A stretch of 9,077 nt of DNA from an uncultured Bacteroidota bacterium. Lineage in GTDB: Bacteria > Bacteroidota > Bacteroidia > Chitinophagales > Chitinophagaceae. Within the stretch, counting starts at the first letter, position 1; each line of letters opens with the position of its first letter. The position numbers were made by a program, and so were the translations under genes. This document shows positions 1,757 to 4,669 of the stretch, piece after piece. The stretch spans positions 1 to 9,077 of the forward strand of contig CAMLGR010000170.1 of assembly GCA_946479615.1 (NCBI GenBank), written 5' to 3'. The notes beneath the pieces are model-generated. The model ran no database searches. It had not been told where the DNA came from and saw nothing but the letters and a program-made list of their open reading frames with translations.

Positions 1757-1791
1757 CATCAGGGTCGGCTTCGCCAGACCCTGATGGGACA
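1757..1791 (-). repeat. REP-like hairpin 1 with TGTCC box (minus orientation)
   Basis: Read on the minus strand: TGTCC box (1791-1787), 5' arm CATCAGGGTC, bulged T, inner stem GGC/GCC around a GAA triloop, 3' arm GACCCTGATG. The 10-bp outer stem is perfect. Compared with hairpin 2, the fifth outer pair is A-T instead of G-C, and the outermost inner pair is G-C instead of C-G. Both are compensatory changes. It lies about 49 nt upstream of the VOC gene start and points away from the transposase gene, opposite to hairpins 2-4. Confidence 0.88.
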
Positions 1792-1908
1792 CTGAACTTA
1801 TCAGCTTTACTATGTCCTGTCTGTATCTCGCGAAGAGAATGTTCCGATAGGAATGTCTCATCAGGGTGTCCTATCGGGGAGCCTCAAGCAGCAAATGTCT
1901 CAGCGGGG

Positions 1909-1943
1909 TGTCCCATCGGGGTCTCGCGAAGCGGACCCCGATG
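1909..1943 (+). repeat. REP-like hairpin 2 with TGTCC box
   Basis: TGTCC box at 1909-1913, then 5' arm CATCGGGGTC (1914-1923), bulged T (1924), inner stem CGC/GCG around GAA (1925-1933), and 3' arm GACCCCGATG (1934-1943). The outer stem is a perfect 10 bp. The core GCGAAGC is known as an exceptionally stable DNA mini-hairpin. The layout (short conserved box 5' of an imperfect palindrome) matches that of REP sequences recognised by RAYT transposases, although the box differs from the GTAG of E. coli REPs. Confidence 0.92.
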
Positions 1944-2041
1944 TATCAACCTCTTCAACAAATCTCCCTCCGAAAAAAAAACATTTCTCCCTGTCTTTTC
2001 CTCCTTGATCTACTTTTCAATACCCGTTACATTTATAGATA
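1914..2041 (+). repeat. Tandem leader repeat, copy 1
   Basis: The first of three related blocks, each made of a REP-like hairpin plus about 90 nt of leader. Shared landmarks are CTTCAACAAA, a CCGAAAAAA run, a pyrimidine-rich tract (CTCCCTGTCTTTTCCTCC), TTTTCAATA and TTACATTTATAGATA. Copies 2 and 3 are at 2167 and 2356. Copy 3 runs directly into the transposase start codon; copy 1 has ATAGCG where the gene has ATGGCT, so it cannot start translation there. The copies differ by point changes and small indels, so the duplications are not recent. Confidence 0.85.
2005..2035 (+). promoter_or_regulatory. Candidate Bacteroidota-type promoter in leader copy 1
   Basis: TTG (2005-2007), a 20-nt spacer, and TACATTTA (2028-2035). 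This approximates the Bacteroidota primary-sigma pattern of TTG at about -33 and TAnnTTTG at about -7, with the final G replaced by A. The same arrangement and spacing recur in leader copy 2, which supports a conserved element. Transcription would run through the REP array towards the transposase gene. Sequence pattern only. Confidence 0.35.
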
Positions 2042-2161
2042 GCGCTGCCTCAACGAAGAGCAGATATCCCATCAAAGCCTCACCAAGCGAATGTCCAAAT
2101 GAAAATGTCTCATCAGTGTCTCGCGAAGTAAATGTCCCACCGGGGAGCCTCGAGCAGCAAA

Positions 2162-2196
2162 TGTCCCAGCGGGGTCTCGCGAAGCGGACCCCGATG
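2162..2196 (+). repeat. REP-like hairpin 3 with TGTCC box
   Basis: TGTCC box at 2162-2166, 5' arm CAGCGGGGTC, bulged T at 2177, inner CGC/GCG around GAA, 3' arm GACCCCGATG ending at 2196. One G/A mismatch (2169 against 2194) interrupts the otherwise paired 10-bp stem. A half-unit begins 29 nt upstream, at the box at 2133. Confidence 0.9.
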
Positions 2197-2293
2197 TATC
2201 AGCCTCTTCAACAAACTTTCCGAAAAAACATCTCTCCCTGTCTTTCCTCCTTGACCTGCTTTTCAATATCTGTTACATTTATAGATAACTATA
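2167..2293 (+). repeat. Tandem leader repeat, copy 2
   Basis: The second hairpin-plus-leader block, with the same ordered landmarks as copy 1, ending TTACATTTATAGATAACTATAAA. This end aligns with the start of the transposase gene (ATGGCTATAAAA), with ATA in place of ATG. The duplicated block therefore reaches into the first codons of the gene. Copies 2 and 3 have their hairpins 189 nt apart; copies 1 and 2 are 253 nt apart because more half-units lie between them. Confidence 0.85.
2251..2281 (+). promoter_or_regulatory. Candidate Bacteroidota-type promoter in leader copy 2
   Basis: TTG (2251-2253), a 20-nt spacer, and TACATTTA (2274-2281): the same elements and spacing as in leader copy 1. 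In copy 3, next to the gene, the TTG has become ATG (2446-2448) and TACATTTA (2469-2476) sits only 3 nt before the start codon. Copy 2 may therefore be the working promoter, with hairpin 4 falling in the 5' leader of the mRNA. This is inference. Confidence 0.38.
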
Positions 2294-2350
2294 AATCGCC
2301 GCACTGTCCCAACAAAGAGCAAATGTCCCACCAAGACCTCACGAAGCAAA

Positions 2351-2385
2351 TGTCCTATCGCGGTCTCGCGAAGCGGACCCCGATG
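2351..2385 (+). repeat. REP-like hairpin 4 with TGTCC box
   Basis: TGTCC box at 2351-2355, 5' arm TATCGCGGTC, bulged T at 2366, inner CGC/GCG around GAA, 3' arm GACCCCGATG ending at 2385. This copy has decayed slightly: a T/G pair at the base and one C/C mismatch. It is the full hairpin closest to the transposase gene, 94 nt before its start codon. Confidence 0.88.
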
Positions 2386-2488
2386 CATCAGTCCCTTCAA
2401 CAAAGATCTCTCCGAAAAAAAACATTTCTTACTGTGTTTTCCTCCATGACCTGCATTTCAATACCTCTTACATTTATAAATGGCTATA
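2356..2488 (+). repeat. Tandem leader repeat, copy 3 (native leader of the transposase gene)
   Basis: The third hairpin-plus-leader block, which continues into the transposase coding sequence: TTACATTTATAA is followed directly by the ATG at 2480. No Shine-Dalgarno sequence is present, as is usual in Bacteroidota. Its -33-like TTG is changed to ATG compared with copies 1 and 2. Confidence 0.82.
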
Positions 2489-3040
2489 AAATTTAAACAC
2501 GAAGATATTTATTCCATGTACTTCTGTACATTCTCCTGCTATGAATGGATTCCTCTATTTGCACTGACAAACGGATATGACCTTGTTTACAAATGGTTCG
2601 ATGTCCTGAGACAGAAAGGACATGATACGATTGCTTATGTTATTATGCCTAATCACCTGCATACGATTTCCTATTTTCCCGAACCCGGGTTTAATCTGAA
2701 CACCATTATCAGTAACGCCAAGCGGTTTATGGCTTATAAAATCGTCGAACGGCTGAAAGCCGATAATCAATTCCAATTATTAAACCGATTGAGCTCAGCT
2801 GTCTCCCCGCGAGAAAAATCACGCGGACAATTGCATAAGGTATTCAATGCTTCTTTTGATGCAAAAAGCATCTACTCGAACTATTTTTTCCAACAAAAGC
2901 TAAACTATATTCATCAGAACCCTGTAAGAGGGAAATGGCAATTAGCGGATCATTATACAACATACGAACATAGCAGCGCTTCGTTTTATGAACTGGGGAT
3001 AGTAAATAGATTTCAACCGCTTGATTACAGGTTATTATAG
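2480..3040 (+). CDS. REP-associated-type HUH (Y1, IS200-like) transposase, 186 aa
   Basis: This is a small single-strand DNA transposase of the Y1/IS200-like HUH superfamily. It is best read as a RAYT (REP-associated tyrosine transposase) because it is flanked by hairpin repeats and not by IS200 ends. The HUH motif is clear in YVIMPNHLH (His59, His61). The YIHQNPVRGKW block at 143-153 is typical of RAYT-type proteins. The length is normal. The ATG at 2480 is supported by the family-like N-terminus (MAIKFKHEDIYSMYFCTFSC). In the region where RAYTs usually carry the nucleophilic tyrosine just before an Asp (WQxxYxD type), this protein has NASFD (124-128) with no tyrosine. Tyr132 and Tyr135 are possible substitutes, or this Bacteroidota subgroup may place the residue elsewhere. 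The role of RAYTs is to nick and join REP single strands, and they are usually domesticated, single-copy genes. Upstream are the leader repeats; downstream is an inverted REP cluster. Confidence 0.88.
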   Translation: MAIKFKHEDIYSMYFCTFSCYEWIPLFALTNGYDLVYKWFDVLRQKGHDTIAYVIMPNHLHTISYFPEPGFNLNTIISNAKRFMAYKIVERLKADNQFQLLNRLSSAVSPREKSRGQLHKVFNASFDAKSIYSNYFFQQKLNYIHQNPVRGKWQLADHYTTYEHSSASFYELGIVNRFQPLDYRLL

Positions 3041-3052
3041 AAGATACCTATT

Positions 3053-3087
3053 CAGCGAGGTCCGCTTCGCGAGACCTCGCTGGGACA
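3053..3087 (-). repeat. REP-like hairpin 5 with TGTCC box (inverted, downstream of transposase)
   Basis: Read on the minus strand: TGTCC box (3087-3083), 5' arm CAGCGAGGTC, bulged T, inner CGC/GCG around GAA, 3' arm GACCTCGCTG. The 10-bp stem is perfect. Compared with hairpin 2, two outer stem pairs are changed on both strands (T-A to G-C near the base and G-C to A-T in the middle), so pairing is kept. It starts 12 nt after the transposase stop codon and points towards the gene. Confidence 0.92.
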
Positions 3088-3140
3088 GCAGCTTCGCGAG
3101 ACCCCGCTGGGACAGCCGTCCTGCAAGACCCTCATGGTGA
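3088..3140 (-). repeat. Downstream REP half-units
   Basis: On the minus strand, a TGTCC box at 3114-3110 is followed by CAGCGGGGTCTCGCGAAGC and then the box of hairpin 5, 27 nt on. This is a half-unit: the 5' arm and GAAGC core are present but the 3' arm is missing. A more degenerate unit lies at about 3115-3140 (ATGAGGGTCTTGCAGGAC). The pattern mirrors the half-units of the upstream array. Confidence 0.75.
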
Positions 3141-3164
3141 AAGAGCTGGAAAGGGGATTGCTAT

Positions 3165-3258
3165 ATAAGAAATAAGGAATAAAAAATAAGGAATGAGAAA
3201 GTGGTAGCCTGAGTACTGTTACTTTCTCATTCCTTATTTTTTATTCCTTATTTCTTAT
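3165..3258. repeat. Palindromic element copy 2 (perfect 38-bp arms), putative bidirectional terminator
   Basis: The arms 3165-3202 and 3221-3258 are exact reverse complements around the 18-nt loop GGTAGCCTGAGTACTGTT. Compared with copy 1, the outer arm has AATAA/TTATT where copy 1 has AACAA/TTGTT, so both arms changed together. It lies between the convergent transposase gene (stop 125 nt upstream) and the histidine phosphatase gene (stop 24 nt downstream). A terminator role is inferred from position and structure. Confidence 0.9.
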
Positions 3259-3282
3259 TTAAAAAACCAACGAAACAACAGT

Positions 3283-4573: not shown

Positions 4574-4669
4574 AATAATAAATAAGGAACAAAAAATAAG
4601 GAATGAGAAAGTAACAGTACTCAGGCTACCACTTTCTCATTCCTTATTTTTTGTTCCTTATTTATTATT
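4574..4669. repeat. Palindromic element copy 3 (perfect 39-bp arms), putative bidirectional terminator
   Basis: The arms 4574-4612 and 4631-4669 are exact reverse complements around the 18-nt loop AACAGTACTCAGGCTACC. That loop is the exact reverse complement of the loop of copy 2, so this copy is inserted or flipped in the opposite sense. The outer arm carries TAAATAAGG where copies 1 and 2 have GAAATAAGG, again matched on both arms. The right arm contains the whole stop codon (4665-4667) of the S9 peptidase gene. Confidence 0.9.

Follow-up and report, generated by a model that had tools for sequence, protein, structure and literature searches.

A probable Bacteroidota REPtron: a group 5 RAYT gene amid boxed hairpins with an unpaired T

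REP-associated tyrosine transposases (RAYTs, also TnpAREP) are domesticated transposases of unknown role, and the experiments on them summarised in PMC8266576 (2021) cover groups 2 and 3. In Escherichia coli, TnpAREP needs a GTAG box and an unpaired bulge in its repetitive extragenic palindromes (REPs), and in IS608, an insertion sequence (IS), the transposase holds an unpaired T of the hairpin and a guide tetranucleotide lies 5' of that hairpin; among REP/RAYT systems, the box of a Marinomonas RAYT selects the dinucleotide that is cut (PMC8266576). For REP/RAYT systems in general, a tetranucleotide 5' of the hairpin is a prerequisite for the cognate protein to cleave single-stranded DNA. The CGTC REPs, which have Bacteroidetes among their hosts and TGTC as a frequent variant, show stems of 8-9 bp opening with A-T, loops mostly 4-5 and a CCA tail (PMC3733652). 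TnpAREP subclass 2.6, equivalent to RAYT group 5, is found mostly in Bacteroidetes: its signatures are NH[LIV]H, YIH[QN]NP, WQ and a conserved SS, with a median HuH-to-Y distance of 82 amino acids (aa), a 21-aa insertion between alphaC and beta4, and hairpins that lack GT[AG]G and have copies elsewhere in the genome (PMC6006769). The text of that paper describes these hairpins as atypical and weaker in structure, identified by manual inspection, and its Additional file 2 Table S1 lists motifs. Here, we analyse a stretch of 9,077 nt (the window) from an uncultured bacterium of the Chitinophagaceae (contig CAMLGR010000170.1), in which a HUH transposase gene lies amid structured repeats. We consider it very likely that the window holds a Bacteroidota-type REPtron, that is, a RAYT of subclass 2.6/group 5 with its cognate REPs.

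The gene and the five full repeats around it are listed below. Scores are those of R1, a covariance model that was built from 16 hand-picked repeats and includes the box.

2480..3040, + strand: RAYT/TnpAREP gene, 186 aa, the one HUH transposase open reading frame (ORF)
1757..1791, - strand: full REP TGTCC-CATCAGGGTC-T-GGC-GAA-GCC-GACCCTGATG, 47.6 bits, E 6.6e-9, R1 training row
1909..1943, + strand: full REP TGTCC-CATCGGGGTC-T-CGC-GAA-GCG-GACCCCGATG, 48.3 bits, R1 training row
2162..2196, + strand: full REP with a single stem mismatch, 41.3 bits
2351..2385, + strand: full REP with a weaker stem (TATCGCGGTC), 36.2 bits
3053..3087, - strand: full REP 3' of the gene, arms CAGCGAGGTC/GACCTCGCTG, 46.9 bits, R1 training row

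Judged by its motifs, the window RAYT is a member of subclass 2.6/group 5. It carries NHLH at residues 58-61 (H59/H61), YIHQNP at 143-148 (Y143), WQ at 153-154 and HSS at 164-166 (SS 165-166), in agreement with all four signatures, and H61 and Y143 lie 82 aa apart. The flanking hairpins of the window lack GT[AG]G, and the copies elsewhere in the genome come from the genomes of relatives. The 82-aa distance, together with the helices at 98-114 of an AlphaFold2 model (pLDDT 94.3), is compatible with the 21-aa insertion between alphaC and beta4. The best match of the model in the PDB is 4er8, a RAYT with its REP hairpin (TM 0.65 by query), followed by ISDra2 and IS608. A database search returned 1749 relatives at E 0.001, and several among the best 120 of these are named RayT by their source. 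The NCBIfam model for REP-associated tyrosine transposases (NF047646) gives the protein 69.4 bits, under the cut-off of 80, and a Pfam scan at E<=0.01 gave no match. Twenty relatives taken from genomes show 45-65% identity over the best segment; going by the record titles, all 20 belong to genera that we take to be Bacteroidota. Interrupted RAYT frames were seen in Terrimonas pollutisoli, a Niabella genome and Pollutibacter soli (L018 5001-5577; L038; L036).

With ISDra2 and IS608 following directly after 4er8, the same comparison could favour a different origin: the gene would be a mobile IS of the IS200/IS605 type, the hairpins would be its ends, and the remaining copies would be such ends in decay. 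The proteins share the HUH-Y1 superfamily and the Y1 transposase fold, IS608 too uses an unpaired T, and the guide lies 5' of the hairpin in both cases (PMC8266576). On the other hand, YIHQNP is a class 2 signature, and the Y---Q motif of class 1 (IS200/IS605) is absent from the window RAYT (PMC6006769).

The preliminary description of this locus had TGTCC standing 5' of an imperfect 10-bp hairpin. The box does stand there, directly, in 5/5 full repeats, but the hairpin is longer: a full unit consists of TGTCC, a 10-nt arm, one unpaired T on the 5' side, a 3-bp stem, a GAA loop and the second 10-nt arm, and the 10-bp stem carries a mismatch in two of the five. Both - strand copies show paired changes (CAGCGAGGTC/GACCTCGCTG in one and CATCAGGGTC-T-GGC/GCC-GACCCTGATG in the other). 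GTCT hairpins with a 10-nt arm and at most one mismatch occur 5 times in the window, compared with a mean of 0.035 and a maximum of 1 in 200 dinucleotide shuffles. The combination of box and hairpin is far beyond chance here, which bears out the earlier picture of a single HUH transposase gene amid structured repeats (five full hairpins and, as described below, truncated copies). TGTCCC by itself is weakly enriched (9 against 3.6 expected) and was dropped as evidence, since 4 of 200 shuffles reach the window count. A known RNA family was likewise rejected as the identity of the repeats, none of which matches an Rfam family at gathering thresholds. There is no inverted REP doublet (REPIN) within the window.

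Many of the 20 genome relatives have flanking hairpins with the same order of parts. Across the 16 hand-picked repeats, 92.8% of the cells are paired against 66.9% in shuffles, and 11 of the 13 pairs show changes on both sides, a number that 3 of 500 shuffles reach. Because these repeats were picked by eye, we redid the count without any box or motif rule on 40 non-training RAYT genes (leaving out the duplicates L115, equal to L075, and L124, equal to L052), taking every perfect stem that lay within about 600 nt of the gene and had 8 bp or more and 5 G/C or more. GTC followed by an unpaired T (GTC-T) was present in 52 of the 76 stems so obtained, and 27 of the 40 genes have one; shuffling these flanks 30 times yielded 3.8 stems, of which 0.07 were of the GTC-T kind. 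Six of the 13 genes lacking a perfect GTC-T stem have an R1 match on the locus (L010, L051, L053, L063, L065 and L073).

These stems also locate the box. Counting from the unpaired T in the 31 distinct arms, position -13 is T in 27 and position -12 is C in 27; [GT]TC in its strict form occupies -14 to -12 in 23, and the fourth letter (-11) is C or T in 22 and G in 7. Measured from the unpaired T the signal is 1.18 and 1.61 bits, and it falls to 0.60 and 0.70 bits when measured from the stem foot; thus, it is the unpaired T, and not the foot, from which the box holds a fixed distance. Most boxes in the relatives read [GT]TC[CT], and the apical part ranges from 6 to about 41 nt (6-45 searched), while GTC-(unpaired T)...GAC and the box-to-T distance are constant. 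The unit is about 34-35 nt long and runs in the order box, 10-nt arm ending in GTC, unpaired T, variable apical hairpin, GAC, second arm. The TGTCC box and GAA loop, which had been proposed as the marks of the system, are true of the window but were rejected as defining features because both vary between relatives; on this comparison of sequences, they are local forms of a shared design. Two variations were noted in passing. The Terrimonas hairpins replace GTC/GAC with GTT/AAC, a paired change beside the unpaired T, and repeats with a longer apical part (L007, L010 and L013; more weakly L001 and L020) share AGCC and GCGCAGC-like pieces there, a possible extra sub-structure.

How does this architecture compare with the described superfamilies? 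Like the E. coli REPtron (group 2/subclass 2.2), the system has an HUH gene amid 5'-boxed hairpins, an irregularity in the stem, which in E. coli has to be unpaired, and 4er8 as its closest structure. The E. coli repeats have a GTAG box and a bulge of two mismatches, whereas here the box is [GT]TC[CT]-like and one unpaired T follows the 10-nt arm, with GTC/GAC below it (PMC8266576, PMC6006769). The GTAG or GTGG at the hairpin foot that marks the GTAG superfamily is replaced by this box, so the initial reading of a REP/RAYT-type system with box and stem unlike those of GTAG REPs stands. We regard it as extremely unlikely that the repeats belong to the CGTC superfamily, as its TGTC variant, and do not form a separate family linked to RAYTs. 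Both kinds are short palindromes, TGTC is a frequent tag among CGTC REPs and some of these occur in Bacteroidetes, but CGTC stems are shorter (8-9 bp from A-T pairs), with loops mostly 4-5, a CCA tail and no unpaired T in the description available to us (PMC3733652). The repeats analysed here combine a 10-bp stem, an unpaired T and an apical hairpin with a box that is mainly [GT]TC[CT], and there is no CCA tail in the listed copies; the CGTC combination of an 8-9 bp stem from A-T, a loop of 4-5 and a CCA tail was not found.

The arrangement around the genes is directional. For the 40 genes, 22 of 26 upstream copies lie on the strand of the gene and 23 of 26 downstream copies on the opposite strand, and the boxes mostly face outwards on both sides. 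The ends of IS200/IS605 elements are not known to be arranged as inverted hairpins facing each other, as the two flanking hairpins mostly are here. The upstream copies, taken alone, would also suit elements that act in the transcript as RNA, such as terminators, attenuators or 5'-leader structures, with an accidental link to the RAYT: they are on the same strand and mostly 45-330 nt before the gene, with a few at 500-570. The downstream copies, with 23/26 on the opposite strand, speak against this.

Copies inside genomes bear on both of these alternatives. In the 15 genomes that were recounted on a larger number of scored candidates, the highest numbers of R1 copies were 91 (G229), 65 (G240), 26 (G175) and 22 (G188), and these genomes have 1, 1, 1 and 2 RAYT matches, respectively; at E<=1e-30 there are 1-4 RAYT matches per positive genome, with at most 11 candidates scored. 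The hairpins of IS608 and ISDra2 are the ends of mobile ISs, whereas here the gene is of low copy and only the hairpins are abundant. With up to 91 repeats against so few genes, the inverted facing hairpins and the class 2 signature, we think an IS200/IS605-type IS very improbable. In sampled stretches of relatives' genomes, the 99 R1 matches fall in 97 distinct places, and the midpoints of 4 of these 97 lie in ORFs of at least 200 aa, although such ORFs make up 62.6% of that DNA; for ORFs of at least 120 aa, the figures are 16/97 and 75.5%. Most sampled copies are therefore intergenic, and the relatives show many extragenic REPs per RAYT gene, 93 of the 97 places being outside ORFs of at least 200 aa.

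Forty of the 91 copies in G229 were aligned. They share no common flank profile; the unit starts sharply at TTC[CT] and stops at the stem foot. The box reads T-T-C-Y in 40, 39, 40 and 40 of the 40 copies, counts that are favoured by selection (the copies were chosen by R1, which includes the box), while the 31-arm count above is free of this effect. The fourth pair below the unpaired T occurs as A-T, T-A, C-G, G-C and T-G. Among wobbles there are 12 G-T and 0 A-C, a count that includes copies of common descent and rests on a model that scores G-U above A-C. Because G-T wobbles exceed A-C, the strand that bears the box would be the one selected to fold, as these copies suggest. The copy that adjoins the RAYT gene of G229 agrees with the others in box and arm and differs in a longer apical part, as though that part were of no importance. 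Within 200 nt, 37 of the 40 copies are solitary by R1 and 3 have a second copy (L144, L145 and L148), at least one of them inverted (L148). Inverted REP pairs occur in some relatives, with L106 pairs 134 nt apart and others in G513 and G401. A fixed cut site in the flanks was considered and rejected for want of a strongly conserved flanking base around the 40 copies; the best upstream base is a T, in 26/40, four bases before the aligned five-base box region.

Folded RNA would account equally well for the pairing and the wobble asymmetry, and the intergenic position of most sampled copies suits it too. Yet the copies start sharply at an unpaired 5' box, few listed copies have a T-run behind the stem (judged by eye), and the copies track both the presence of the RAYT and its tree (below). 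Together with the strand of the downstream copies, this makes RNA elements with an accidental RAYT link an unlikely explanation, and a REPtron our preferred one.

Such tracking was scored in two samples of genomes. The family sample covers 294 genomes of the family of G018, a Niabella genome, with R1 at E 0.001 and a close RAYT at E 1e-30. The repeat was matched in 75 genomes and the RAYT in 60; 41 genomes have both, 34 the repeat only, 19 the RAYT only and 200 neither (odds ratio 12.7, p=1.3e-15). That is, the repeat is present in 41/60 genomes with the RAYT and in 34/234 without it, and 19 of the 23 genomes with at least 5 repeat copies have the RAYT. In the phylum sample of 375 genomes, the corresponding numbers are 5, 4, 1 and 365 (p=1.2e-8). 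The Fisher p-values overstate the evidence, because related genomes are not independent and the two samples overlap (at least in G018, G052 and G087). Absences of repeat or RAYT are soft because few candidates were scored per genome (23 RNA and 11 protein candidates in the family, 18 and 9 in the phylum). The repeats occur far more often in genomes that have a RAYT of this kind, and are not exclusive to them. The idea that they occur only with a close homologue of the transposase thus holds as a strong association and not as a rule.

The box letter follows the protein as well. In a tree of 51 RAYTs, 41 of which are labelled G or T, the letter changes 7 times compared with a mean of 13.3 after shuffling, and 0/500 shuffles were as low; ten proteins without a clear box label are uncounted, and the labels come from a looser stem rule. 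Many forks of the tree have low support, and near copies favour the clustering of labels.

Several results weigh against a REPtron of this kind. In the family sample, 34 of the 75 repeat-bearing genomes lack a close RAYT, and of these 34, 27 have weaker RAYT matches and 7 have none at E 1e-5. Conversely, 8 of the 19 RAYT-only genomes show no repeat even at E 0.05, and seven of the 40 gene loci have neither a perfect GTC-T stem nor an R1 match (L016, L056, L058, L060, L069, L071 and L072). Across 102 distinct repeats drawn from many loci, G-T exceeds A-C less strongly (19 to 6, p=0.015). The flanks of the 40 G229 copies show no conserved dinucleotide of the kind expected from a fixed cut site, and none of the repeat copies had an observed empty site.

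Some of the mismatch in distribution can be followed further. Of the 19 RAYT-only genomes, 11 give an R1 match once the threshold is relaxed to E 0.05; these matches are kept outside the co-occurrence table. The distant RAYTs of the 34 orphan genomes were considered as owners of the orphan repeats and rejected, since R1 at E 0.05 matched once among 30 loci of such weaker matches, some 900 nt away from the gene, and four of the loci carry a different repeat. Because R1 repeats are not found beside the weaker RAYTs and four loci have another palindrome, RAYT lineages seem to have their own repeats. The orphan repeats may outlive the gene or reflect assembly gaps. As for the other palindrome, the four distant paralogues (L076, L077, L080 and L083) have GTTGTTGGTC or a near form with its complement; these arms have a short loop, no unpaired T and often GCC in front, and are possibly a further REP type. 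Two orphan repeats, L110 and L113, adjoin genes for a Vsr endonuclease and an Mrr restriction enzyme, in genomes with no RAYT match (G228) or a weak one only (G080).

The anatomy of the hairpins, taken with the findings on groups 2 and 3 (PMC8266576), allows a sketch of how such a system would work. The RAYT would recognise the box-bearing strand as a single-stranded hairpin, reading the stem and the unpaired T, and the box would guide cleavage; cutting and rejoining would proceed via H59, H61 and Y143. In this way, the hairpins could spread as tiny non-autonomous elements while the RAYT gene remains at low copy. The fixed distance fits a protein that would measure between box and unpaired T. 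The guide rule of one Marinomonas RAYT (PMC8266576) predicts, by analogy, a cut at GG or AG.

Flanking direct repeats offer a possible handle on how the repeats enter new sites. Among the 40 G229 copies, six are bordered on the two sides by sequences that match each other at a local score >11, the 99% point of 1560 pairs of mismatched flanks. A further 40 copies (13 from G229 and 27 from G240, G188, G401, G513 and G601) include 5 with matching flanks, against 9 of 1560 mismatched pairs. In total, 11 of 80 copies from six genomes lie between direct repeats, and 9 of these 11 are alike:

L133, L138, L142, L150, L156, L171, L184, L185, L203: hairpin copies between direct repeats of 14-95 bp (95 fills the searched window)

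In these nine, the direct repeats end 0-13 nt before the box region and resume 0-18 nt behind the stem, and no further hairpin follows the second one. Two of the eleven differ: L199 is a tandem array that contains a further copy, and in L195 the repeats are about 50 nt off. Such direct repeats are a possible trace of REP insertion, or of repair that duplicates the flank; tandem duplication with later loss may also have produced them. To our knowledge, IS200/IS605-type insertion does not leave such duplications. Taking these observations together, we tentatively propose, with rather less than even confidence, a third REP superfamily beside GTAG and CGTC, in which group 5 RAYTs of Bacteroidota would recognise a [GT]TC[CT] guide at a fixed 10 nt from a flipped-out T, a reading of the hairpin like that of IS608, and would cut at GG/AG and not at CT, with insertions able to duplicate the flank over 14 to 95 bp or more.

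The pairing of this transposase with this repeat family had been suspected to be undescribed. The class, with its copies in the host genome, is already in print as subclass 2.6/group 5 (PMC6006769), and the window agrees with it in motifs, the distance of 82 aa and hairpins without GT[AG]G, which in relatives have further genomic copies. What seems new is the uniform architecture of group 5 hairpins, with a GTC-T core and a fixed box-to-T distance: we find one architecture with strong stems, in contrast to the atypical, weaker hairpins described in the text of PMC6006769. The text portions of that paper give no box, unpaired T or spacing, although more may be listed in its supplementary table. 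PMC8049555 and PMC2817692, searched by term, returned nothing on the architecture, and no paper with it came up by title or abstract start in a search that leaves most of the subscription literature outside. A class called atypical and found by eye could thereby be reduced to one consensus that can be searched for and tested on gels. In addition, the fixed box-to-T distance predicts a clear geometry for the grip of the protein on the hairpin, and the way in which the box letter follows the transposase tree points to proteins and DNA that are matched in pairs.

The full repeats of the window are accompanied by shorter and longer duplications:

1813..1908, + strand: array of truncated units leading into the full REP at 1909 (segmentation; direct-repeat families D1, D7, D9 and D11)
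2092..2161, + strand: second array of truncated units, ahead of the full REP at 2162 (direct repeats, segmentation)
2305..2350, + strand: third array of truncated units, ahead of the full REP at 2351 (direct repeats, segmentation)
3088..3114, - strand: truncated unit TGTCCCAGCGGGGTCTCGCGAAGCTGC adjoining the downstream full REP (direct repeats, segmentation)
1944..2484, + strand: three diverged copies of the leader of the gene, about 1944-2043, 2197-2289 and 2386-2484 (families D2 and D4)

By our own segmentation, there are 11 truncated units of 13-29 nt (box and 5' arm, some reaching the loop), arranged head to tail just 5' of full copies. The leader copies are ~95 nt long, each lies 3' of a full REP, and the last reaches the start codon. 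We read the truncated units and the threefold leader as local amplification.

Around the transposase gene, the ORFs of the window encode ordinary domains (dehydrogenase E2, glyoxalase, histidine phosphatase, peptidase S9, methyltransferase and EamA). A second family of window repeats consists of A/T-rich inverted repeats in intergenic DNA, at 1214-1312, 3155-3268 and 4574-4669. Their arms of 39-48 nt are 92-100% complementary around a spacer of 18-21 nt, resembling miniature inverted-repeat transposable elements or terminators. A 19-nt exact piece of them was present in 0 of the 172 loci searched, and one of the three sits right behind the RAYT unit.

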